A program made the position numbers and the translations under genes. The notes below the pieces were generated by a model that was given only the letters and a program-made list of their open reading frames with translations, did no database searches and was not told where the DNA came from. A DNA stretch of 64,000 nucleotides from Nocardioides agri (lineage in GTDB: Bacteria > Actinomycetota > Actinomycetes > Propionibacteriales > Nocardioidaceae): positions 3,063,669-3,127,668 of the forward strand of contig NZ_JACEIC010000002.1 of NCBI RefSeq assembly GCF_013778305.1. Reading direction: 5' to 3'. Of this stretch, positions 6,988-29,946 are shown piece after piece. Position 1 is the stretch's first letter, and each line of letters starts with the position of its first letter.

Positions 6988-7253
6988 GTGACGACGGCCA
7001 CCGCCGAGGTCTCGACCGGCAACAACGACGCCTCGGCCGCGGCCGACGTGGGGCCGGCACCCGTCGTCGTCGGTGGCGACGAGCCGCCGCCTCCGGCGGG
7101 TGGCGCCGGTGTCGGCCCGCCCGGGGTGCTGCCCGCCACCGGCGCGAGCCAGACCACCAGCGAGCTCGTCGTCCTCGGGCTCACCCTCGTCGCGCTGGGC
7201 GGACTCCTGATCCTGCTCGCCGCCCGGGGGGGCGCCGCCGGCGGGGCGACTGA
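6988..7253 (+). pseudogene. LPXTG sorting-signal remnant or frameshifted small surface protein
   Basis: The frame opening at GTG 6988 encodes a Pro/Gly/Ala-rich stretch, then LPATG (7129-7143), a hydrophobic segment ending LLILLAARGG, and reads on without stop. If the run of seven G at 7226-7232 had one more G, the frame would continue as four arginines, Gly, Asp and a TGA at 7251-7253, exactly the charged tail expected of a sortase substrate. The N-terminus has no signal peptide. It is therefore either a broken gene, a homopolymer sequencing error, or a slippage-controlled gene. Coordinates follow the restored frame. Confidence 0.4.
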
Positions 7254-7436
7254 AGCCGAGCGGTCGCTGACGTTTCACCCGAAAGTAGGCTCCTGCGCCG
7301 CAGGATCTGGCGGGGTGCCTCATGTTTTCGCAAGGGTCTTTACACGTCCGAAATTGCGTGATGTGGTGCCGCGGGTGGGCATCGAGGCCCACGTCGGCGG
7401 CCGTTCGGGGCGCCGTACAACTCTCGGAGGAATACG
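7254..7436 (+). promoter_or_regulatory. Leader/promoter region of the M6 protease
   Basis: This 183-bp stretch is unusually A/T-rich in its second half (TTTTCG, TTTACA, GAAATTGCG between about 7325 and 7365). A short hairpin TCCTGC/GCAGGA with a 3-nt loop lies near 7290. It holds the GGAGG ribosome-binding site at 7426. The promoter elements cannot be fixed by eye. Confidence 0.3.
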
Positions 7437-9740
7437 TTGAAGCGACGCATCTCGGGCGTCCTTGGCGCGGCCGCGAGCCTCACGCTCGCGGCCGTCGTCA
7501 TGCCAGGATCGGCGACGGCCACCCCGTCCGCCGACCAGGTTCCCGACGCCCAGCAGGTCACCAACCACAAGAGCGACGACCGGCGGGACCCGCTGGAGGC
7601 CAAGCGGCGGGAGCTGAAGGAGAAGGCGGTCGAGCTGGTCGCCACCGGCAAGCGCGACGTCGTGGACCGCGGCGGCTCCAAGGCCGTCAGGATCTCGGAC
7701 GACAAGTGGGTCGAGTACGGCACCCAGGAGACCGCGCAGCTGCTCACCTTCCTGGTCCAGTTCGGCGACACCGTCGACCCGCGCTTCCCGACCGCACCGG
7801 CCGGGCCGGGCGCGGGCGAGATCCCGGAGCCGGGCGCCGACGACAACAGCACGTACTGGAAGCCGGGCTTCGACCGCCAGCACTACCTCGACATGTTCTT
7901 CAACGGCATGCCGGAGCAGGACGGCGAGTCGTTCAAGGACATCTACAACGAGATGTCCAGCGGTCGCTTCGACGTCGAGGGCGACGTCTCCGACTGGGTG
8001 ACGGTCCCCAACAACGAGGCCAGCTACGGCCAGACCGAGAACAACGTCGACATGACGCGCTTCGTCGGTGACAGCGCGACGGCCTGGTACCAGGCACAGA
8101 AGGCCGCCGGCATGAGCGACGCCGACGTCACGGCCTACCTCCAGCAGTACGACATCTGGGACCGCTTCGACCACGACGGCGACGGCGACTTCTCCGAGCC
8201 CGACGGCTACATCGACCACTTCCAGGCGATCCACGCCGGTGAGGGCGAGGAGGCCGGAGCGCCGGAGTGGGCCATCTGGTCGCACCGCTGGTATGTCAAC
8301 CCCAACCGGACCCAGGGCCCGGAGGGCGCCAAGTACGGCGGTGTCCAGATCGGCAACACCGGCCTCTGGATCCGCGACTACACCACCGAGCCGGAGAACG
8401 GCGGCCTCGGCGTCTTCGCGCACGAGTTCGGCCACGACCTCGGCCTGCCGGACTACTACGACACCAAGGGTGGCGAGAACGGCACCGGCTTCTGGAACCT
8501 GATGAGCTCGGGGTCCTGGATGAGCCACGGCGGCGACGCGATCGGCACCACGCCCAACCACATGGGCGCCACCGAGAAGCTCTACCTCGGCTGGCTCGAC
8601 TACGCCCAGGTGGGCGCCGGCCGGCAGGCCGACGTGAAGCTCGGCCCGTCGTACCACGCGACGAGCAACGCCCAGGCCGTGCTGGTGAACCTGCCGCCCG
8701 GCCAGGAGAAGATCGACGTCGGTGGCGCGGCATCCGGGACGAAGTACTTCTACTCCGGCCAGGGCGACAACCGCACCGCCACCGTGACCAGCCCGGCGTT
8801 CACCGTCCCGGCGGGCGGACAGCTCACCGCGAAGGTCAACTACGACATCGAGGCCAACTGGGACTACGCCTACGCGGAGGTCTCGGCCGACGGCGGCAAG
8901 ACGTTCACCCCGGTGCACACCAACCTGTCGACGAGCACCAACCCCAACAACCAGAACGACGGCGAGGGCATCACCGGCGCCAGCGGGGGCAAGTGGGTCG
9001 ACCTGACGGCCGACCTCGCGTCTTACGCCGGTCAGAGCGTCCAGCTGCGCTTCCGGATGTTCAACGACGAGGCGTCGCACGGTCTCGGCTTCAAGGTCGA
9101 CGACATCGCGGTGGGCACCGCCCTGACCACCGGTGTCGAGGACGGTGCGCCGACGTGGACCAAGGACGGCTTCCTCGTCGTCGAGAACGGCAGCTACAAC
9201 AAGCCGTACGTGCACTACTACCTCGCCGAGAACCGCGTCTACGGTGGCTACGACTCGACGCTGAAGAAGGGCCCGTACAACTTCGGCTGGGCGGTCACCA
9301 AGCCCAACAAGGTCGAGCACTTCCCGTACCAGGACGGCCTGCTGGTCTGGTACGCGAACTCCCTCTACTCCGACAACAACACCAGCGAGCACCCGGGCGG
9401 CGGCGAGGCCCTGCCGGTCGACGCTCACGCGAAGGCGCTGGAGTGGAGTGACGGGACCGTCGCGCGCAACCGGATCCAGTCCTACGACGCGACGTTCACG
9501 CTCGACCAGACCGACCCGATCAGCCTGCACCGGGAGGCCGCCACCGCCGGTGGCACCCAGCGCACCACGCTGGTCCAGAGGGCGCAGAACGGCGTGAAGG
9601 TGTTCGACGACACCGACCCGAACGCCTACTACGACGCGTCGAACCCGGGTGGTTCGGTCATCGTGGGTGGCACGGGCACGACGATCCGCATCCTGACGGC
9701 CAACGCCACGAAGGGCGTGATGACGGTCCGCGTGAACTGA
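7437..9740 (+). CDS. Secreted M6-family (immune inhibitor A-like) metalloprotease
   Basis: A 767-residue extracellular zinc protease. It has a signal peptide of about 30 residues (MKRRISG start, cleavage near ATATP), a pro-region, and the catalytic motif HEFGHDLGLPD (His329, Glu330, His333), in the HExxHxxGxxD form of M6 peptidases. After the catalytic domain comes a beta-rich region (about residues 430-560, GGQLTAKVNYDIEANW and WVDLTADLASYAG segments) typical of immune-inhibitor-A accessory domains. The TTG start has a good ribosome-binding site (GGAGG at 7426-7430). Likely role: extracellular protein degradation. It is followed by a 17-bp perfect hairpin. Confidence 0.93.
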   Translation: MKRRISGVLGAAASLTLAAVVMPGSATATPSADQVPDAQQVTNHKSDDRRDPLEAKRRELKEKAVELVATGKRDVVDRGGSKAVRISDDKWVEYGTQETAQLLTFLVQFGDTVDPRFPTAPAGPGAGEIPEPGADDNSTYWKPGFDRQHYLDMFFNGMPEQDGESFKDIYNEMSSGRFDVEGDVSDWVTVPNNEASYGQTENNVDMTRFVGDSATAWYQAQKAAGMSDADVTAYLQQYDIWDRFDHDGDGDFSEPDGYIDHFQAIHAGEGEEAGAPEWAIWSHRWYVNPNRTQGPEGAKYGGVQIGNTGLWIRDYTTEPENGGLGVFAHEFGHDLGLPDYYDTKGGENGTGFWNLMSSGSWMSHGGDAIGTTPNHMGATEKLYLGWLDYAQVGAGRQADVKLGPSYHATSNAQAVLVNLPPGQEKIDVGGAASGTKYFYSGQGDNRTATVTSPAFTVPAGGQLTAKVNYDIEANWDYAYAEVSADGGKTFTPVHTNLSTSTNPNNQNDGEGITGASGGKWVDLTADLASYAGQSVQLRFRMFNDEASHGLGFKVDDIAVGTALTTGVEDGAPTWTKDGFLVVENGSYNKPYVHYYLAENRVYGGYDSTLKKGPYNFGWAVTKPNKVEHFPYQDGLLVWYANSLYSDNNTSEHPGGGEALPVDAHAKALEWSDGTVARNRIQSYDATFTLDQTDPISLHREAATAGGTQRTTLVQRAQNGVKVFDDTDPNAYYDASNPGGSVIVGGTGTTIRILTANATKGVMTVRVN

Positions 9741-9758
9741 TCGTCGCAACGGCACGAC

Positions 9759-9802
9759 CGAGGGGGTCGTGCGCCTGGGAGACCGGGCGCACGACCCCCT
9801 CG
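9759..9802. terminator. Strong bidirectional hairpin terminator
   Basis: Perfect 17-bp arms CGAGGGGGTCGTGCGCC (9759-9775) and its complement (9786-9802) around a 10-nt loop, midway between the convergent protease and MFS genes. There is no T-run. Its position suggests it serves both genes. Confidence 0.85.
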
Positions 9803-9878
9803 TCGTGGGCACGGGCTCAGCGTCAGCGCGAACGGCGGTCCCGCCAGGCACCGGCGCGGAGACGGCTCGTGTGAGTAC

Positions 9879-11330
9879 TCAGGCCTGGACGTGCTCCGGG
9901 TGCTCGGCCTCCCACTCGGCCTGCGGTCCGGGCACGACGTGCGTGCTGGCCCGCACGACCGGCACCAGGATCGCGACGACCGTGGCGGCGGTGGCGGTGA
10001 TGGCCAGCAGCAGGAAGCCGTGGGAGTAGCCGGACTCGACCGGGAGGCCGGTCGGCTGCAGCTCGCTGGTGACCACCGTGGCGAGCAGGGCGGAGCCGAT
10101 CGCACCGCCGACCGTGCGGATGTTGGTGTTCATGCCGCTCGCGACGCCGGTCTGCGACTGCGGGACGGCGGCGACGACGAGGTTCGACATCGCGGCGAAC
10201 GCGAGCCCGAAGGCGAGACCGAGGAAGAGCGTCTCGACGACGATCATCCAGAGCTCGTCGTGGGCGAACGCGATGCCGAACATGCCGATCGCGGTCAGCG
10301 CGGCGCCGACCACGAGGAGCGCCTTGGAGCCGACGCGCGTCGCGAGCCGGCCGGCTGCGACGCCGCCGATGAAGCTGGCGACGGTCTGGGGGAGCAGCAG
10401 GAGGCCGGACTGGGTGACGGTCGCGCCGAAGCCGTAGCCGGCGGCCTCCGGGGTCTGCAGGAACTGCGGCACGAAGGCGAACATCGAGTACATGCCCATG
10501 CCGAACAGCAGGGCGACGAGGTTGACGGTCCAGACGGTCGGGATCCGCATCATCCGCATGTCGACCAGCGGCTGGTCGCTGCGCGCCTCGGCGACCACCC
10601 AGACGGGCAGCAGCACGGCGGCAGCCACGAAGAGGCCGATGATCTCCGGAGAGGCCCAGCCCCAGTGGTGGCCCTGGCTCACCGCGACCAGCAGCGCGAC
10701 CAGCCACCCGGAGAGCAGCAGCGCGGTGCCGATGTTGATCCGGCCCGGCGTGCGCTCCGGGGACTCCGGCACCCAGATCGCTGCGCCGATCGCGGCCAAC
10801 GTCGTGATGATCATCGGGATCCAGAACAGCCAGTGGTAGCTCAGCGCCTCGACGAGCGGGCCGGCGATCACGAGGCCGACACCACCGCCGACGGCGAGCA
10901 GCGCCGCCGACGTGCCGATCGCGGAGGCGACCTTCTCGCGCGGGAACTCGTCGCGGATGATGCCGAAGGTCAGCGGCAGCACGCCGCCGCCGATGCCCTG
11001 GATCGCGCGGGCCGCGATCATCACGCCGACGGTCGAGGCGACCGCGGCGAGCAGTGAGCCGACGGCCAACGCGGCGAGCGCCACGACGAGCATCCGCTCC
11101 TTGCCGACCTTGTCGCCGACACGGCCGATGATCGGGGTGAAGACGGAGGCGGAGACGAGGTAGGCGGTGAGCACCCACGTCACGGTCGCCTGGTCGGTGC
11201 CGAGTGCGGCCTGGATGGTCGGGAGCACCGGGTTGACCATCGACTGGAGCAGGGAGAAGGAGGCCACCCCTACGCAGAGCACCAGGAAGGTGACGCGATA
11301 GTCGGTACGGCGCGCGAGGGGGTCGGTCAT
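9879..11330 (-). CDS. MFS multidrug efflux transporter (DHA2-like)
   Basis: A 483-residue major-facilitator protein with about 12-14 hydrophobic segments. The motif-A region reads GRVGDKVGKER after helix 2, and motif C-like GxxxGP (GGGVGLVIAGPLVEAL) is present in helix 5, the antiporter signature. The substrate is unknown. ATG 11330 is chosen because the sequence before it is poorly hydrophobic and lies in the promoter region; an upstream ATG at 11381 would add 17 residues. Confidence 0.88.
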   Translation of the reverse strand: MTDPLARRTDYRVTFLVLCVGVASFSLLQSMVNPVLPTIQAALGTDQATVTWVLTAYLVSASVFTPIIGRVGDKVGKERMLVVALAALAVGSLLAAVASTVGVMIAARAIQGIGGGVLPLTFGIIRDEFPREKVASAIGTSAALLAVGGGVGLVIAGPLVEALSYHWLFWIPMIITTLAAIGAAIWVPESPERTPGRINIGTALLLSGWLVALLVAVSQGHHWGWASPEIIGLFVAAAVLLPVWVVAEARSDQPLVDMRMMRIPTVWTVNLVALLFGMGMYSMFAFVPQFLQTPEAAGYGFGATVTQSGLLLLPQTVASFIGGVAAGRLATRVGSKALLVVGAALTAIGMFGIAFAHDELWMIVVETLFLGLAFGLAFAAMSNLVVAAVPQSQTGVASGMNTNIRTVGGAIGSALLATVVTSELQPTGLPVESGYSHGFLLLAITATAATVVAILVPVVRASTHVVPGPQAEWEAEHPEHVQA

Positions 11331-11419
11331 GCTTCGCCCAACCTCGTCCCGGACTGGTTGATTCCGGCAACCGTCGAGCAATCGGTGTGAGGAGGCTCGC
11401 GTCGTAGCCTGGGCCGGCG

Positions 11420-21860: not shown

Positions 21861-21889
21861 TTGGATACCCCTTGGGGGTATGTTAGCGT
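21861..21889 (+). promoter_or_regulatory. CsoR-type copper operator embedded in the copA promoter
   Basis: A perfect palindrome with arms ATACCCC (21865-21871) and GGGGTAT (21875-21881) around TTG matches the core of known CsoR operators. It overlaps a -35-like TTGGAT (21861-21866) and fills the 17-bp spacer before the -10 TAGCGT (21884-21889), which is 7 nt from ATG 21897. CsoR binding would block the promoter until copper releases it. No csoR gene lies nearby. Confidence 0.8.
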
Positions 21890-21896
21890 CGATGTC

Positions 21897-24800
21897 ATGA
21901 CCACCTCGCCGGCGCTGTCCGAGTCGACCCTCGACATCGAGGGGATGACCTGCGCGTCGTGCGTCAACCGGGTCCAGAAGGCGCTCAACCGGGTCGACGG
22001 TGTCGTGGACGCGTCGGTGAACCTCGCGACCGAGACCGCCTCCGTCACCTACGACCCGGCCGCGGTCGGGCCCGCCGACCTGAGCGCGGCCGTCGAGAGG
22101 GCGGGGTACGCCGGACGGGTGCGCCAGCCGGTCGCGCCGACGCCCGACGAGCCGGACCCGATCGCCGCGCTCGACGCCCGCCGGGACACCGAGATCGCCA
22201 CGCTGCGCCGGCGGTGGCAGGTCGCCCTCGTGGCGGGACTCGCGCTGATGGGCGTGATGTACCTCCCGCTCCACGTCGACACCATGGACTGGCTGATGCC
22301 GCTGCTCCTGGTCGTCGCCACCACCGTGCTCTTCTGGGCCGGGCAGGACATCTACCGCCAGGCCTGGGTGAACCTCCGGCACCGGACGACGAGCATGGAC
22401 ACGCTCGTCGCGCTCGGGACCGGCGTGGCCTGGGCCTACAGCGCGTTCGTGACGCTGTGGCCGGGGCTGGCCGAGCGGTGGGGGCTGCCGTTGCACCTCT
22501 ACTTCGAGACGGCGCTGATCGTGGTCGCGCTGATCCTCATGGGCCGGTGGCTGGAGCTGAAGGCCAAGAAGCGCACGGCCTCCTCGCTGCGCGCCCTCGG
22601 CGACCTCGCGCCGACGACCGCGCGCGTCGCGCGTGGTGACACCGAGGTCGACCTGCCGCTCGCCGAGGTCGCCGTCGGCGACCTGGTGCGGGTGCGTCCC
22701 GGCGAGAAGCTGCCGGTCGACGGCGTCGTCGTCGAGGGCCGGTCCGCGGTCGACGAGGCGATGCTCACCGGCGAGAGCGTGCCGGTGGAGAAGGCCGTCG
22801 GCGACGCGGTGATCGGGGCGACCGTCAACACGACCGGCACCCTCGTCGTCCGCACCACCGCCGTCGGCGCCGACAGCACGCTGGCTCAGATCGTGCGGCT
22901 GGTCGAGGAGGCACAGGCGTCCGCGCCACCGATCCAGCGGCTGGCCGACCGGGTGTCCGCGGTGTTCGTGCCCGCGGTGCTGGTGGTCGCGCTGCTGACG
23001 TTCCTGGCCTGGCTCGCCTTCGGCCCGGACGGCGATCGCCTCACGCTCGCGATCGGTACGACGGTCGCGGTGCTGATCATCGCCTGCCCGTGCGCGCTCG
23101 GGCTGGCCACGCCGACGGCCGTGATGGTCGGCACCGGGCGGGCCGCGGAGATGGGCATCCTCATCGGCGACGGCGCCGCGCTGGAGACGGCCCGGCGGCT
23201 GACCGCGGTCGTGCTCGACAAGACCGGCACGATCACCCAGGGGCGGCCCGACGTCCGCACGGTCGAGGCCGTCGAGACCGTCGGCGACGCCGACGCGCTG
23301 CTCGCCCTCGTGGCCGCTGCCGAGGTCGGCAGCGAGCACCCGGTGGGGGAGGCCGTGGTCCGGGCCGCGCGCGAGCGTGGCCTGGTGGTGCCGCCGGCCA
23401 CCGACTTCGACTCGGTGCCCGGGCACGGGGTGGTCGCCACGGTCGACGGCCGCCGGGTCCTGGCCGGGAACTCCGCCCACCTCGCGGCCCACGGCGTCGT
23501 CGCCGCCGGCGCCGGGATCCTGGTGGCGGTCGACGGCGCGTACGCCGGCCGGATCGAGGTCGCCGACACCGTGAAGCCGACGTCGGCCGCGGCGGTCCGG
23601 GCACTGCGCGACCTCGGGCTCGAGGTCTGGATGGTCACCGGCGACGACGCGGCGACCGCTCGGCGGGTGGCCGGCGAGGTCGGCATCGAGCACGTGCTGG
23701 CCGGCGTACGACCGGCCGACAAGGCCGCCCGGGTCGCCGATCTGCAGGCCGCCGGCCACGTGGTCGCGATGGTCGGCGACGGCGTCAACGACGCCCCCGC
23801 GCTGGCGACGGCCGACCTCGGCATCGCGATCGGCACCGGCACGGACGTGGCGGTCGCCGCGTCCGACGTCACGCTGGTCGGCGGCGACCTCGGTGGCGTG
23901 GCCTCCGCGATCGACCTGTCGCGGCGCACGGTGGCGACGATCAAGCAGGGGCTCGCGTGGGCCTTCGCCTACAACGTGCTGCTGATCCCGGTCGCCGCCG
24001 GCGCGCTCTACTGGTGGGACGGCCTGCTGCTCGACCCGGTGCTGGCCGGGGCCGCGATGGCGATGAGCTCGGTGAGCGTGGTGACCAACGCGCTGCGACT
24101 GCGGCGTCCGAGCCGCGGGAGGGTCGCGGACTCGGCGTACCTCGTCGGCATCGCCGCCCTGGCGCTGCTGGTCGGCGCCGGGTTCACCTGGCTGAGCCGC
24201 ACCGACCAGGCCGAGCGCGGCATGAACGGTCTGCTGTCCTTCCAGGAGGACATGGGCATGCCGATGCACCCGCAGATGTCGGTGATGGAGCAGACCGAGA
24301 TCCCGCCGATGTCGGCCGACGACGCCGGGCTGACCTTCGGGTACGACGTGCCGGCCGACGTCGCGCCGGGCGAGGCGACGACCGTGACGATCACGGTCGA
24401 CGGCGCCTCCCGCCTGGTGAAGACGCACGAGGCGTGGATGCACCTGATCGTGACGCGCGCCGACCTCGGCACGTTCGCGCACCTGCACCCGGAGCCCACC
24501 GACGAGGAGGATGTGTTCGAGGTGCCGGTCACCTTCCCGACCGCGGGCGACTACACGCTGCACGCGGAGGTGCGGGAGCAGGGCCAGCTGGCCGACGTGC
24601 TCGACGAGACGACGGTGCCGGTCGCGGGCACCGCCCCCGCTCCGGTCGCGGTGCCGGTCGGTGACGTCCGCTCGGCGACCGTCGACGGGGTGACGGTGTC
24701 GCTGGAGGGCGAGGCGCGGGTCGGTGGGACGAGCGACCTGACCCTGCGCACACCCGAGGGCCTGCAGCCCTACCTCGGCGCCGCCGGGCACGTCGTGGTG

Positions 24801-25013
24801 ATGCGCGCCGACGGTGCCGACTTCCAGCACCGGCACGCCGAGACCTTCGACGGCCGGGGCCGGCCGGTGCCGGCGCTGCCGGGCACCACGTTCGGGCCCG
24901 AGCTCGACCTGCACGTGCGCTTCGACGACGCCGCCGCCTACCGGCTCTGGGTGCAGCTGCGGCTCGCCGACGGGTCGGTGGTCACCGCGCCGTTCGTGGT
25001 GCACGCGGGTTAG
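21897..25013 (+). CDS. copA: Copper-translocating P1B-type ATPase with fused extracytoplasmic C-terminal domain
   Basis: A 1038-residue copper exporter. In order: heavy-metal-associated domain with GMTCASC (Cys19, Cys22); transmembrane helices; phosphatase TGES; ion-binding ACPCALG (Cys397, Cys399); phosphorylation Asp441 in DKTGT; HP motif [18 protein letters not shown]. This core ends near residue 742. An extra helix (about 748-765) then a Met/His-rich linker ([12 protein letters not shown]) and about 250 residues with two beta-rich units follow, containing FAHLHPEP and FQHRHAE and resembling YtkA-like copper-associated domains. The fusion suggests metal hand-off outside the membrane. The start follows the CsoR operator. 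Confidence 0.93.
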
Positions 25014-25023: not shown

Positions 25024-25446
25024 ATGAGCGACGTGGATTACTGCGATCTGTGTGACCTTCCGAAGAGCACGTGCATCCACGGCAACCCGCCGCCACCACC
25101 GCCGACAGCGGTGAAGCGGGCGGCGCCGCGGGTGCCCGGGACTCGTCGTACCGCCGCTGCTCCGCCGGCACCGCCGCGCGTCGTCAACACGAAGTGGACG
25201 CCGCCGGTGGCCTTCGAGCCGGTGATCCTCGAGGTGCTCGACGAGCACGGCGGCCAGATGGAGCAGGACGACGTCTACGTCGCCCTCGAGGAGGTCATGG
25301 CCGACCGGCTCAAGCCGGCCGACCACGAGACCACCCCCGAGGGCGAGCTGCGCTGGCGCTACGCCGCTCGCAAGGCCCGGCAGACCCTGATCGCCGACGG
25401 GCGGATGACCAAGGGCAAGCCGGGCGTCTGGGCACTCGCCGACTGA
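25024..25446 (+). CDS. Conserved protein: zinc-ribbon-like N-terminus and Mrr_N-like winged helix
   Basis: A 140-residue protein. Residues 7-19 contain CDLCDLPKSTCIH, a possible zinc knuckle. A Pro/Ala/Arg-rich linker follows, then a C-terminal domain (about 60-140; FEPVILEVLDEHGGQ, RWRYAARKARQTLIADG, GVWAL) that resembles the Mrr N-terminal winged helix. Such a layout suggests nucleic-acid binding. It lies 10 bp after copA, but a role in copper handling is not implied by the sequence. Confidence 0.7.
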   Translation: MSDVDYCDLCDLPKSTCIHGNPPPPPPTAVKRAAPRVPGTRRTAAAPPAPPRVVNTKWTPPVAFEPVILEVLDEHGGQMEQDDVYVALEEVMADRLKPADHETTPEGELRWRYAARKARQTLIADGRMTKGKPGVWALAD

Positions 25447-25520
25447 GCTGCCGCTCGCCTCTCGTCCGTCGAAATCGTCGGTCCGCGAACCGATCGGCCC
25501 CCTCGGTGGCACAGTGAAGC

Positions 25521-26069
25521 GTGACCGACCACCAGGGGCCTGCGGAGGCGAGTGACCGGGCGTTGCTCGCCCGGATCGCGGAGGACGACCGCGGTGCGCT
25601 GCACGAGCTCTTCGTGCGGCACCAGCCGTGGCTGGCCGCCCGCGTCCGGCAGCGCTGCGCCGACCCCGCGATCGTCGCCGAGGTCGTCAACGACACCTTC
25701 CTGGTGGTGTGGGAGAAGCCCGGCAGGTACGCCGGGGACGGCGAGGTGGCGGCCTGGCTGTGGGGCATCGCGATCCGCACCCTGCTCCACCGGCTGCGGC
25801 CGCGGAAGTCGGTGCTGGAGCGGCTGACCGCCCTGCGCCACGACCACGCCACCGCGTCCGCCGAGGAGGCGGTGCTCCTCTCGGTCGAGCACACCGACGT
25901 CGGCCAGGCGCTGCAGCGGCTCTCGCCCGAGCTCGTGGCCGTCGTGCAGGCGACCGTGATCGACGGGCTGTCGACCCGCGAGGCCGCTGCCCTGCTCGGG
26001 ATCCCGAGCGGCACCGTCAAGAGCCGGATGAGCCGGGCCCGCTCCGAGCTGAGGGAGGCGCTGCTGTGA
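25521..26069 (+). CDS. ECF-family RNA polymerase sigma factor
   Basis: A 182-residue group IV sigma factor. Region 2 (about residues 15-85; FVRHQPWLAARVRQRC, DTFLVVWEKPGRY, VAAWLWGIAIRTL) and region 4 (about 120-175; ALQRLSPELVAVVQATVIDGLSTREAAALLGIPSGTVKSRMSRA) are both complete. The stop overlaps the anti-sigma start by 4 bp (GTGA). It leads a six-gene coupled operon with ABC-transporter genes, which are probably part of its regulon. Confidence 0.95.
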   Translation: MTDHQGPAEASDRALLARIAEDDRGALHELFVRHQPWLAARVRQRCADPAIVAEVVNDTFLVVWEKPGRYAGDGEVAAWLWGIAIRTLLHRLRPRKSVLERLTALRHDHATASAEEAVLLSVEHTDVGQALQRLSPELVAVVQATVIDGLSTREAAALLGIPSGTVKSRMSRARSELREALL

Positions 26070-26899
26070 GCACCCACCACACCGCGTGGCACGCGGACGA
26101 CGAGGACCTGACGACGTACCTGGACGGCGGTACGCCGGCGGTGCTGGCCGCGTCGCTCGAGACCCACGTCCTCGGCTGCCCCGCATGCCGGGCGCGGCTC
26201 GCGACGCTGAGCAGCGCCGACGAGCGGGAGCTCGCCTGGGCGCGGCTCGCCGACGCCGTCGACCGGCCGTCGCGCTCCCCGTGGATCGTGCGTTCCGCGA
26301 TCGCCACGCCGGTGATGGTGCAGGCGGCCGCGGTCGCCCTGCTGCTGGTCGGCCTGGTGCCGCTGGTCGCTGCGACCGCCTTCGGGGGGCGGGGACTCGT
26401 CACGCTCCTGGTGGCGGCGCCGCTCGCACCAGTCGCCGCCGTCGCCCTGGCCTATCGGGACGGCTCCGACCCCAGCGGCGAGCTCGCCCTCGCGGCGCCG
26501 ACCGCCGGCCTGCGCATCGTCGCCCTCCGGGCGCTGCTGGTCGCCGCGATCGCGATGCCCGTGGCCGCCGGGGTGCTGCTCGGTGTCGACCAGTGGCTCG
26601 GCGACGTGCCGGTGCGGCTCGCCTTCGCGTGGTGCCTGCCCGGTCTCGCGCTGGCCGCGGTGGTGCTGCTGGCCGGCACCACCCGTCTCGACCCCGCTCA
26701 CGTGGCCGTCGCCGCCAGCGCCGGGTGGGCGCTGCTCGTCGGCCTGATCGTCTTCGCGCACCGGTCGGTGCGCCCGGAGCTCTTCACCGACGCGATCGGC
26801 GGACCCGCTGTGCAGGCCGCCGCCCTGGCGGTCGCGGTCGGCGCGACCGTGATGACCGTCGTACGGCGCGACGCCGTCGCCTACCGGAGGACCACATGA
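26066..26899 (+). CDS. Zinc-finger anti-sigma factor with six transmembrane helices
   Basis: A 277-residue membrane protein. The N-terminal cytoplasmic domain has the zinc-binding anti-sigma pattern H-x3-C-x2-C (HVLGCPAC, about residue 34), followed by six hydrophobic helices from about residue 85 to 270. Most anti-sigma factors of this class have a single helix, so the polytopic part may be a sensor or couple to the ABC transporter encoded next. It is translationally coupled to the sigma gene and to the ATPase gene (ATGA). Confidence 0.85.
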   Translation: MSTHHTAWHADDEDLTTYLDGGTPAVLAASLETHVLGCPACRARLATLSSADERELAWARLADAVDRPSRSPWIVRSAIATPVMVQAAAVALLLVGLVPLVAATAFGGRGLVTLLVAAPLAPVAAVALAYRDGSDPSGELALAAPTAGLRIVALRALLVAAIAMPVAAGVLLGVDQWLGDVPVRLAFAWCLPGLALAAVVLLAGTTRLDPAHVAVAASAGWALLVGLIVFAHRSVRPELFTDAIGGPAVQAAALAVAVGATVMTVVRRDAVAYRRTT

Positions 26900-27726
26900 T
26901 CGAGACCACCGCCCTCACCAAGGCGTTCGGCCGCACCCGCGCGGTCGACGAGGTGACCCTGTCCACCGGCCGGGGCGTGATCGGGTTGCTGGGCCCGAAC
27001 GGCGCCGGCAAGACCACGCTGCTGCGGATGGCGGCCACCGTGCTCGCCCCCGACGCCGGCGAGCTCCGGCTCCTCGGGCTCGACCCGAGCCGGGCCGGCG
27101 AGCGGGTCGAGATCCGCCGCCGCCTCGGCTACCTGCCGCAGAGCCCCGGTCTCTACCCGGGCTTCACCCCCTACGACATGGTCGACTACGTCGCCGTGCT
27201 CAAGGAGCACACCGACCGCGCGTGGCGACGCCAGGAGGCGCGCCGGGTGCTGGAGGCCGTCGAGCTCACCGACGTCATGCACAAGAAGATCCGCTCGCTC
27301 TCCGGCGGCATGCGGCAGCGGGTCGCGCTCGCCTGCGCGATGGTCGGCGACCCGGACCTGCTCGTGCTCGACGAGCCCGCCAACGGACTCGACCCCGACC
27401 AGCGGCTGCGGCTGCGCTCCCTCCTGTCGACCTCGTCCACGGTGCTGATGTCGACCCACAACATCTCCGAGGTTTCCGCGCTCTGCCAGCGCGTCTACGT
27501 CATGTTCGACGGCCGGATCCGCTTCACCGGCACGCCGGCCGACCTCGCGGGGCTCGCGGTCGGCCGGGTGTGGGAGGACGACCGCCAGGACCCGGACGCG
27601 ATCCGCAGCTGGCTCACCTCCACCGGCACCTACCGCCACCTCGGTCACCCGCCCAGCGGCGCCCAGGTCGTCGACCCGACCCTGGACGACGGCTACCTGC
27701 TGCTCGCCCGCAAGGAGCACACCTGA
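26896..27726 (+). CDS. ABC transporter ATP-binding protein
   Basis: A 276-residue nucleotide-binding subunit. Walker A GPNGAGKT (33-40), Q-loop YLPQSPG, signature LSGGM, Walker B LLVLDEP and the H-loop STHN are intact. Overall it resembles exporter-type ATPases (CcmA/NatA group). Its start overlaps the anti-sigma stop and its stop overlaps the next membrane gene. The two following membrane proteins are the likely permease. Confidence 0.93.
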   Translation: MIETTALTKAFGRTRAVDEVTLSTGRGVIGLLGPNGAGKTTLLRMAATVLAPDAGELRLLGLDPSRAGERVEIRRRLGYLPQSPGLYPGFTPYDMVDYVAVLKEHTDRAWRRQEARRVLEAVELTDVMHKKIRSLSGGMRQRVALACAMVGDPDLLVLDEPANGLDPDQRLRLRSLLSTSSTVLMSTHNISEVSALCQRVYVMFDGRIRFTGTPADLAGLAVGRVWEDDRQDPDAIRSWLTSTGTYRHLGHPPSGAQVVDPTLDDGYLLLARKEHT

Positions 27727-28145
27727 TGGCCGCCTGGTTGTGGCCGACGGTCCGCTCGATCAGCTGGGCGCCGTTGGCCGGGGTCTCGGCCTGCCTCCTG
27801 GCGGTCACCCTCGTGACGGACAACTGGAACGCGGGCCTCGTCGGGATCGCCGCGGCCGCCGTCGCAGGGGCGCAGGTCGCCGGCCTGCACGACCCGGCAG
27901 CGGCGCTGCTCTCGGCGCTGCCGACCTCCGCCGCCGTACGCCGGGCGCGCCGGCTCGCGCTGCTGGTCCCGGTCGCCCTCGGGGTGTGGCTGGCGACCGT
28001 CGACGGGTCGCTGCTCGGTCTGCTCGCGCTCACCGTTGTGGGTGTCGCCGTGTCGGTGCACGCGGGGGTGCCGGCCGGCGTCGCCGTACCTCTCCTCTGG
28101 GCGATCTTCGCCTGGTCCGCCGGATTCGAATGGGATCTCCGATGA
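27726..28145 (+). CDS. Small integral membrane protein of the ABC operon
   Basis: A 139-residue hydrophobic protein with four to five predicted helices and no soluble domain. It begins within the ATPase stop codon (TGATG) and its stop overlaps the next gene, so its synthesis is coupled to both. It is likely a small permease subunit or accessory. I recognise no named family. Confidence 0.7.
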   Translation: MAAWLWPTVRSISWAPLAGVSACLLAVTLVTDNWNAGLVGIAAAAVAGAQVAGLHDPAAALLSALPTSAAVRRARRLALLVPVALGVWLATVDGSLLGLLALTVVGVAVSVHAGVPAGVAVPLLWAIFAWSAGFEWDLR

Positions 28146-28999
28146 CGACTGCTACGCACGAGCTGGCCCGGATGGAGGCGCGGCTGATGCTGCGCCATCC
28201 GGCGCCCTGGACAGGCGCCGTCCTCTCGGCGCTGATGGCCTGGAACATCTGGGACGAGGACTGGTCCGGCGAGCGCTACCAGATGCTCATCGCCTCCGTG
28301 ACGCCGCTGCTGCTGGGGATCTCGCTGGCCAGCGTGTCGGCGTTCGGCCGCGAGCTGGTGCCGGTGGCCGACGCGGCCCCGATGGACCGGTCCCGCCGGT
28401 CGGTGGCCCGGCTGGTCGGAGCACTGCCACTGGTGGGTGTCGCCGCGGTGCTCATCGCGGGCGTCTTCATCTGGCTGCGCGCCATCGGCGGTCTCACGCT
28501 CGGCGACGAGCCAGGGCGGACGGTGCACGCGCACCACACGCTGCCCGAGATGCTCCAGCCGGTGCTGCTCGCGGTCCTGGCGGTCGCGATCGGCGCGGCC
28601 ATGGTCCACGTCCTGCGCCGACGCCTGGCCGCCTCGATCCTGCTGGCCCTCGGGTGGTTCCTGCTCGGGCCGACCTACTGGATCTTCAACGGGCCCGTCC
28701 TGACGTTCTTCAGCCCGGTGCAGGTGCAGCCGATGACCGTCGACATCGGTCCGCCGGAGACGGATCCGTCGACCTTCCCGGCGGGCTGGCTGCTCACCGG
28801 TCCGGGGCCGTACCAGGACTACTGGGGCCGGGTCGTGGTGTCGCCGGCCATGGCGGCCTGGCACGACGTCTACCTGGTCGGCGTCATCGCGCTCGCCGTG
28901 GCGGTCGCGGTCCCCGGTCGGCTGCGCCGTCCGCTCGTCGCCCTCGGCGTGGTGCTCGTGGCCGCCGGTGTCGTGATGCAGAAGGTGGTGGCACCGTGA
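28142..28999 (+). CDS. ABC transporter permease-like membrane protein
   Basis: A 285-residue membrane protein with about six helices and an extracytoplasmic loop (around residues 190-225, QPMTVDIGPPETDP) before the last two helices. It starts inside the stop codon of the small membrane gene. By position it is the main permease for the ATPase at 26896. The family is not recognisable beyond ABC-2-like exporter permeases. Confidence 0.75.
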   Translation: MTTATHELARMEARLMLRHPAPWTGAVLSALMAWNIWDEDWSGERYQMLIASVTPLLLGISLASVSAFGRELVPVADAAPMDRSRRSVARLVGALPLVGVAAVLIAGVFIWLRAIGGLTLGDEPGRTVHAHHTLPEMLQPVLLAVLAVAIGAAMVHVLRRRLAASILLALGWFLLGPTYWIFNGPVLTFFSPVQVQPMTVDIGPPETDPSTFPAGWLLTGPGPYQDYWGRVVVSPAMAAWHDVYLVGVIALAVAVAVPGRLRRPLVALGVVLVAAGVVMQKVVAP

Positions 29000-29946
29000 A
29001 GCGCTTGTTCGCGGCCGCAGTGGCGGCCCTGGCGCTGACCGGCTGCAGCGCGCCGTACGACGACGACGGCGAGTACGGCGCGGCGGGCTCGCTGGCCGGT
29101 GCGGCCGCACCCGAGGAGGACGCGACTCCCGTCGTGGTCGACACCGACCTCGCCGGCGACGACCTCGTGGCGCTGGCCTACCTGCTGCGCCGTCCCGACG
29201 TGCGCGTCGTCGCGGTGACCGTTGCCGGCACCGGACTGGTCGGCTGCGACCCCGGCGTGGACCTGGTCGCCGACCTCGTGCACGCGCTGGGGGAGGGCTT
29301 CGTGCCGGTCGCCTGCGGACGCGAGGAGCCCGCGCGGGAGTGGCCGGCGGCGTGGGTCGAGACCGCCGAGGCCGCACCCGGGCTGCCGCGCCTGGACACC
29401 ACGTTCCGGCCCGCGTCCGAGCCGGCGCCGCTGCTGCTCGCCGAGCTGGCGATGTCCTACCCCGAGCTCGACGTGGTCGCACTGGGGCCGCTGACGAACC
29501 TCGCCGACCTCGCCGAGCGCTGGCCGGACGACTACGCGCGGCTGGGCGGGATCCACGTCATGGGCGGCGCGGTGGACGTGCCGGCGATCGACGGCGTCGC
29601 CGAGTGGAACGCCGCGGCCGATCCGGCGGCGTTCGCCGCGGTGCTCGCGGGACGGGTCCCGGTCACCGTGGTGCCCGACGACCCGATCCCGTCGGGCACG
29701 CCCGAGGAGCTCGTCGTCGGCGTGGTCGGAGCGATCGCGACGGCTGCTGGAGACGTCCCGAAGCGGTGGGACCTCGCGACCGCCGCTGCGTTCGTCGAGC
29801 CGGGGCTGGCCGAGACCCGGCGGGGCACCTGGACGGTCGACGACACCGGCCGCCTGACCCGCACCGGCCCCGGCCGCACCACGGTCGTCACCGCCCTCGA
29901 CGAGGCCGGGCTGAACGCGTCGTACGCGAGCGACTTCTCGGGGTAG
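28996..29946 (+). CDS. Nucleoside-hydrolase-family lipoprotein
   Basis: A 316-residue protein with a lipoprotein signal (LALTGC, Cys at 17) and an inosine-uridine nucleoside hydrolase-type core: the calcium-binding motif reads DTDLAGDD in place of the usual DTDPGIDD, with ALGPLTNLA and HVMGGAV following and WNAAADPAAFAAVL later. Asp residues for the metal are retained. An exported, membrane-anchored version coupled to an ABC operon suggests scavenging or sensing of extracellular nucleosides. GTG 28996 overlaps the preceding stop; the gene abuts the converging gene at 29947 with no gap. Confidence 0.85.
   Translation: MKRLFAAAVAALALTGCSAPYDDDGEYGAAGSLAGAAAPEEDATPVVVDTDLAGDDLVALAYLLRRPDVRVVAVTVAGTGLVGCDPGVDLVADLVHALGEGFVPVACGREEPAREWPAAWVETAEAAPGLPRLDTTFRPASEPAPLLLAELAMSYPELDVVALGPLTNLADLAERWPDDYARLGGIHVMGGAVDVPAIDGVAEWNAAADPAAFAAVLAGRVPVTVVPDDPIPSGTPEELVVGVVGAIATAAGDVPKRWDLATAAAFVEPGLAETRRGTWTVDDTGRLTRTGPGRTTVVTALDEAGLNASYASDFSG

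Follow-up and report, generated by a model that had tools for sequence, protein, structure and literature searches.

We analyzed a stretch of 64,000 nucleotides from Nocardioides agri (contig NZ_JACEIC010000002.1, positions 3,063,669 to 3,127,668; hereafter the window), in which six genes form an operon between positions 25521 and 29946 of the forward strand. Pfam searches showed that the first gene (25521..26069) encodes an extracytoplasmic function (ECF) sigma factor of 182 amino acids consisting of sigma2 and sigma4 only (Sigma70_r2, expect value (E) 3.8e-10; r4_2, E 6.3e-13). The second (26066..26899) encodes an anti-sigma factor of 277 amino acids, with an N-terminal zinc anti-sigma domain and a predicted six-helix domain resembling the ABC-2 permeases of ATP-binding cassette (ABC) transporters. 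These are followed by an ABC ATPase of 276 amino acids that is of the exporter type by likeness (26896..27726; Pfam match, E 7e-30), a small permease of 139 amino acids, P4 (27726..28145), a large permease of 285 amino acids, P5 (28142..28999), and a lipoprotein of 316 amino acids from the nucleoside-hydrolase family (28996..29946; IU_nuc_hydro, PF01156, E 4.1e-34). P4 and P5, the two small membrane proteins of the operon, had no Pfam match above cut-off, and Pfam recognized no binding protein among the six gene products. The genes are joined by overlaps which read, in order, GTGA, ATGA, TGATG, ATGA and GTGA; an earlier note on this DNA had described six translationally chained genes, and both its coordinates and its five junctions were confirmed.

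The hydrolase was searched for in 196 genomes of the genus, of which 56 had some match to the hydrolase family and 20 (own genome included) had a match with E below 1e-50; a hydrolase gene without the cluster in genome G026 (locus L053, E 5.6e-24) was counted as a paralogue. Comparison covered 19 other Nocardioides loci, and one locus of another family out of 394 genomes of the class. The same six genes stood in the same order in all 18 complete Nocardioides loci and in the locus of the other family, locus L041 being cut by a contig end inside its ATPase gene and thus outside the count of complete loci. A scan of named genomes gave 28 loci, many of them on Nocardioides contigs already compared; among them the additional L104, L109 and L111 all had the six genes, bringing the complete related loci with this order to 22/22, as scored with profiles that include many of these same loci (L102, L104, L109 and L111 lie outside them). 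Such an arrangement exceeds chance, and gene order, which the earlier note had named as able to refute its reading, did not refute it. Overlaps of four bases, ATGA or GTGA, are the rule among the related loci. L036, L042, L044 and L050 did not enter the profiles of the P4, P5 and hydrolase families; alignment A1 (hydrolase) leaves out L036 and L044, and alignment A2 leaves out the fused L100.

Part of this operon is found much further afield. At E ≤ 1e-8 the anti-sigma profile matched in 69 of the 394 class genomes, representing 26 of 137 genera, and 40 further core loci were taken from 39 of these genomes, 38 of the loci in other genera and two in Nocardioides. The order sigma factor, anti-sigma factor and ATPase was seen, as recognized genes, in 40/40 of these, with profiles that again include many of the scored loci (L177–L196 lie outside them). 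A P5-like permease followed the core in 33/40 and a P4-like permease in 21/40, the stretch of L164 ending within the ATPase gene; the wide P5 profile was made without L173 and L174, and the wide P4 profile without L174. Both of the Nocardioides cores are free of the hydrolase: L175 (genome G084) is a second copy beside a six-gene operon, and L176 (genome G103) is the sole match of its genome at E ≤ 1e-8. Several of L038–L050 carry, some kilobases downstream of the operon and on the opposite strand, a second ABC ATPase gene whose product is ~37–41% identical to protein P0003. In L158, which belongs to another genus, a gene for a 5'-nucleotidase according to Pfam (9602–11404) lies a few kilobases downstream of the core module, and L157, L159, L160, L162 and L163 of the same genus have a similarly placed long frame, likened to it by position, which may be plain synteny.

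The zinc domain of the anti-sigma factor (zf-HC2, residues 14–42, H-x3-C-x2-C; 26105..26191) scored above the Pfam cut-off in the window protein and matched 24/27 proteins of this anti-sigma family at E ≤ 1; His34, Cys38 and Cys41 are invariant in 27/27. A profile of the 27 anti-sigma factors compared with PDB sequences matched ChrR (4.5e-6), DdvA (3.1e-4), entry 3hug (6.5e-4), which we take to be RslA, and RsiW (0.045). This comparison also gave a match to part of the importer permease HmuU (E 0.015), which we attribute to chance. The remainder of the protein has six hydrophobic segments, as the earlier note had predicted, and 4–6 were counted in 19 relatives at the same cut-off. Its loop between transmembrane helices (TM) 2 and 3 (residues 130–160; 26453..26545) bears the coupling-helix-like motif DP..E.....P....R....R, in which Pro145, Arg150 and Arg155 are invariant in 27/27 and whose register is common to P4. 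The TM2–TM3 loops of the anti-sigma factor, P4 and P5 all resemble the coupling helix of ABC-2 transporters.

When the model of the anti-sigma factor was aligned to known structures with VIA-align (residues 68–276), ABC exporters took up the first 40 of the 50 listed rows, which are many entries of few proteins. The top match was ABCG5 (Z 11.7, root-mean-square deviation 4.4, 196 residues), followed by a mycobacterial pump (8k1n, Z 10.2), NosY (10.0), ABCA1 (9.7) and chain B of CcmABCD (8.3), with the first unrelated row at 8.0; in helical models a Z below ~13 can reflect a common arrangement and is no proof. A search of a viral structure library gave no match at E ≤ 0.001. Initial, narrow profile comparisons gave E values of 0.07–0.29. 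With widened profiles, the helices of the anti-sigma factor matched P4 (E 0.0013) at a score of 27.9, which none of 120 shuffles reached (maximum 19.1). P4 and P5 matched one another with E 9.5e-5, a comparison for which no shuffle control was made, and in one of the 40 further loci (L195) the P5 hidden Markov model matched the helices of the anti-sigma factor itself (E 9e-4). We regard a permease-like fold of the six-helix part as partly shown.

Of the transporter proteins, the ATPase is nearest by sequence to ABCA proteins, LptB, Rv1218c and NosF ranking lower, and the lantibiotic-protection model gave it 129 bits against a cut-off of 309.75. P5 gave a good model (predicted local distance difference test, pLDDT, 88.3; predicted template modelling score, pTM, 0.87) and, as modelled, has the ABC-2 fold: in VIA-align NosY was the best match (Z 15.9), all 50 listed rows were ABC transporters, aligned to residue 264 at most, and the best Foldseek match had E 1.2e-3 (probability 1.00). 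Beyond the aligned part lies an extra C-terminal helix (residues 262–283), with which the C-terminus would come to be outside. Mean numbers of lysine plus arginine (K+R) agree with an inner N-terminus and an outer C-terminus, at 5.2, 2.5, 2.8 and 3.2 for the four inner parts and 0.3, 1.2, 1.7 and 0 for the four outer ones, the loops being set from the model. The direction of transport would be outward, judging from the family likeness of the ATPase and P5. P4 measures 139 amino acids here and ~160–201 in relatives; the window protein lacks the C-terminal part, with the four-base overlap to the next gene retained. In L044 the P5 gene reads as split over two frames in an otherwise intact cluster. 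In L036 (= L100), from a Nocardioides metagenome-assembled genome (MAG), P5 continues in frame into the hydrolase, with the stop, signal peptide and lipobox gone and the hydrolase domain still detected by Pfam (E 4.9e-28). This fusion and the charges that agree with an outer P5 C-terminus would suit a hydrolase that acts next to P5 at the outer side of the membrane.

The hydrolase itself has a lipobox-like cysteine (Cys17; 29044..29046), invariant in 19/19 aligned sequences, with LPAM_1 itself below cut-off; behind it follows an acidic linker in which a DG pair is invariant, and two more cysteines, 84 and 107, are invariant in the same alignment. The metal/catalytic motif DTDLAGDD (residues 49–56; 29140..29163) had been called altered in the earlier note. 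All four aspartates of DxDxxxDD are kept: the family motif is D[TS]D[LF][AG]xDD, and Asp49, Asp51, Asp55 and Asp56 are invariant in 19/19. The same is true of Glu203, Asn205, Trp258 and Asp259, which align with solved nucleoside hydrolases. The nearest profile match was PDB 2c40, with which the protein has in common FP..W and the Trp-Asp pair (Trp258-Asp259; 29767..29772). In purine-specific nucleoside hydrolases a tryptophan in this position stacks against the nucleobase. Asp259 lies at the position of the C-terminal metal aspartate, and Glu203 and Asn205 at those of the Glu and Asn of AE(F/W)N. The hydrolase is probably an active enzyme.

The earlier note had proposed looking for a shared promoter-like motif upstream of 25521. 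One was found before the operon itself and is conserved in relatives: GAACCG (25487–25492), 11 bases and CGNNGNCAC (25504–25512), which together form a putative autoregulatory ECF promoter (25487..25512, no mismatches). GAACCG-N11-CGNNGNCAC was present upstream of the sigma gene in 20/20 loci (the window, 18 Nocardioides loci and L055), with no mismatch in 13 and one in seven. A strict form, GAACCGWTC-N7-TCGNNGGCAC, had one perfect site in the own genome, at the operon, none with one mismatch and 14 with two; its reversed pattern, which differs in base make-up and was not used as a null, had 0 sites. The loose motif had 106 sites with one mismatch or fewer (45 for the reversed control), four of them perfect. 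The three perfect sites other than that of the operon, one of which (L073) has an ATG 31 bases on, all apparently fall inside long reading frames, and none of the three was counted as a target; further targets may exist among the weaker sites. The position and conservation of the motif suggest that the sigma factor may read sites of the GAACCG type.

We tentatively propose, as a reading that falls a little short of an even chance, that the operon is a self-regulating, transporter-coupled ECF sigma module with a role in export or detoxification. The zinc domain of the anti-sigma factor would hold the sigma factor at the membrane, where the six-helix, ABC-2-permease-like domain would sit with the ATPase and the two permeases. 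Whether the exporter is working or loaded, and not simple proteolysis of a one-helix anchor, would then determine release of the sigma factor. Once free, the sigma factor would activate the operon that encodes it, along with a gene for a SodC-like protein in some relatives. The pump could control the switch directly, because the anti-sigma factor looks like a piece of the pump. Within the lineage of the window, the surface lipoprotein may be held beside P5 on the outside, where it would probably cleave an N-glycoside, either toxic or acting as a signal, on the cell surface as the pump exports this compound; the layout would be one of immunity or detoxification, comparable to LanFEG with LanI except that the lipoprotein is an enzyme. 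Complex formation, a sigma factor that reads the motif and is released by the state of transport, the direction of that transport, the nature of the substrate and a part in defence are inferences. A narrower version, in which the anti-sigma factor is a true subunit of the ABC transporter, with its zinc domain on a permease half, and retention or release of the sigma factor is driven mechanically by the ATP cycle of the pump, is possible, though somewhat more likely wrong than right. That a polytopic anti-sigma factor is tied to the transporter in a coupled envelope system, as the earlier note supposed, is made plausible as a direct link by the structural and profile likeness to permeases.

Several observations weigh against our proposal, in addition to the modest Z values given above. 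The AlphaFold2 model of the anti-sigma factor is moderate (pLDDT 71.7, pTM 0.59), and Foldseek returned no match to it at E ≤ 0.001, the best being NosY at 0.48. Its profile comparison with P5 was not significant (7/120 shuffles reached the real score), the ABC-2 models of Pfam matched 0/27 anti-sigma factors at E ≤ 1, and its loop charges fit six helices worse than those of P5 do, with mean K+R of 0.89 in inner loop 4 and 1.84 in outer loop 5. Because Pfam was blind to the likeness and the charges of these two loops fit poorly, we call the protein permease-like and not a member of ABC-2. A wider form of the motif, TGAACC-N15-18-CGA[TC], preceded the sigma match by no more than 140 bases in just 17/40 further loci (at 150 bases in one more, and before a SodC-like gene in three). 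The fusion in L036 is one MAG contig of low coverage (about 5.7-fold). The hydrolase was found in 0/40 further core loci, the stretches of L164, L167, L170 and L186 ending before or near its place, and it therefore looks like an addition in one lineage. It also occurs by itself: L102, from a Marmoricola MAG, has an orthologous hydrolase without the cluster (7198–8130), and L119, from a Chloroflexi MAG, has a 44% relative without the module (7839–8933). Given these, and its absence from the core loci, the hydrolase is not essential to the switch. By eye, the neighbor in L102 is a RibD-type reductase gene and those in L119 are clpX/clpP-like genes. At the seven remaining weak hydrolase matches (L120–L126), tblastn detected no sigma factor, anti-sigma factor or permease; L124 had one ABC ATPase match, at 31%.

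The failure of Pfam to find a permease in the 27 anti-sigma factors, and the weak Foldseek values, would suit another arrangement, in which the helices are a mere anchor or an independent sensor, regulated proteolysis sets the sigma factor free as usual and the ABC genes serve as a co-expressed output. According to PMC8103513, membrane anti-sigma factors most often release their sigma factor through proteolysis. Against this stand the likeness of the anti-sigma factor to permeases, in structure and by profile, and the ATPase as the next recognized gene after it in 40/40 further loci; we consider this arrangement rather unlikely.

A further possibility concerns the SodC-like gene. Eight of the 20 motif loci have a second, divergent copy of the motif before a gene for a protein resembling Cu/Zn superoxide dismutase (SOD), and L109 and L111 add a divergent motif with one mismatch or fewer, making 10/10 related loci that have the gene. 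Pfam detected Sod_Cu in the two copies scanned (E 9.7e-10 and 1.2e-8), and a hydrophobic N-terminus, judged by eye, suggests that the protein is exported. Among the 40 further loci, three (L164, L167 and L177) have a SOD-like gene just upstream of the sigma gene on the same strand, leading the operon behind a similar motif, TGAACC...CGACA. These loci, NosY as the top structural match of P5, and the statement in PMC7406223 that redox sensing is frequent among the zinc anti-sigma domains of cytoplasmic anti-sigma factors, would agree with a response to extracytoplasmic redox or copper stress, in which a NosFY-like transporter keeps exported proteins in order or loads them with metal, the SodC-like protein is a main output and the hydrolase is incidental. 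However, no close SodC-like gene was found in the own genome (best match elsewhere 37%, E 2.6e-5), nor any in the other related stretches or in 37/40 further stretches, and the likeness to NosY is general for ABC-2. Just upstream of the operon lie genes for a heavy-metal P-type ATPase (21861–25013) and for a small CxxC protein without Pfam match (25024–25446), the C-terminal part of which also precedes the sigma gene in L035. With one mismatch or fewer, the motif occurred in the window at the operon and at ~2318 (reverse strand), and not at the metal-type ATPase gene. A redox or copper response of this kind is, in our judgement, improbable.

The least supported alternative, and a very improbable one, is that of the earlier note, in which the operon senses or scavenges extracellular nucleosides: the hydrolase family with its catalytic residues retained, the permease fusion of one relative and the long downstream frames in six loci of the other genus, that of L158 being a 5'-nucleotidase, speak for it, but scavenging or import was rejected as the core role because the ATPase and P5 resemble exporters and none of the six products was recognized as a binding protein, and the hydrolase was seen in none of the 40 further cores, four of whose stretches end at or near its place.

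Should the anti-sigma factor be a subunit of the pump, a transport-sensing switch would be common in Actinomycetes, with lineages adding their own surface enzymes, and an ABC transporter would control transcription directly, with no kinase, which would give a defined route to sense export load. The lineage-specific enzymes may point to substrates. The Nocardioides form offers a short conserved motif that might be usable as a reporter. The interpretation of the earlier note is, as a whole, partly supported; its title brings together a switch of general occurrence and an enzyme of one lineage, and the core is more widespread than the six genes.

PMC7406223 surveys anti-sigma groups that differ in how many membrane helices they have, and ECF257, listed without a cognate anti-sigma factor, has ABC transporters beside it (PMC8999054). 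The portion of PMC11256431 covered gave no sign of a module of sigma factor, permease-like anti-sigma factor and ABC transporter. A literature search, of which the 2021 ECF classification was not a part, gave no permease-like anti-sigma factor and no such gene set among the matches listed.

Compared with known systems, the window protein has its N-terminal anti-sigma domain in common with the Class I zinc-binding anti-sigma (ZAS) factors ChrR, DdvA, RslA and RsiW, which carry a cupin or a single helix where it has a six-helix, permease-like C-terminus. The ATPase and P5 resemble those of ABC-2 exporters (NosFY, ABCA, ABCG, Rv1217c/1218c), unlike which the window has a permease-like protein bearing an anti-sigma domain and a P5 with an extra C-terminal helix. 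With the nucleoside hydrolases (IUNH, 2c40) the window hydrolase has DxDxxxDD, AEWN and Trp-Asp in common; it differs in being a lipoprotein, in its DG-containing acidic linker, in its two more invariant cysteines and in its operon context. LanFEG with LanI, an analogous system, likewise combines an ABC-2 exporter, two permeases and an immunity lipoprotein, whereas the lipoprotein here belongs to an enzyme family, the nucleoside hydrolases, and control is by an ECF sigma factor. Similar in plan is the sigY-yxlCDEFG operon of B. subtilis, which combines an ECF sigma factor, small membrane anti-sigma proteins and an ABC ATPase and permease in one operon, and is not known to have a zinc anti-sigma domain fused to six helices or a hydrolase lipoprotein. 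The NCBIfam SigY model gave the window sigma factor 64.5 bits (cut-off 194), lower than several other sigma models. The earlier note knew of no described system of this composition, and the exact composition was indeed not found in the literature; for the general plan, given the sigY operon, that was too strong. ECF operons with ABC genes are known in kind, and the combination of a permease-like anti-sigma factor with a hydrolase appears, by this comparison, to be a variant of that plan.

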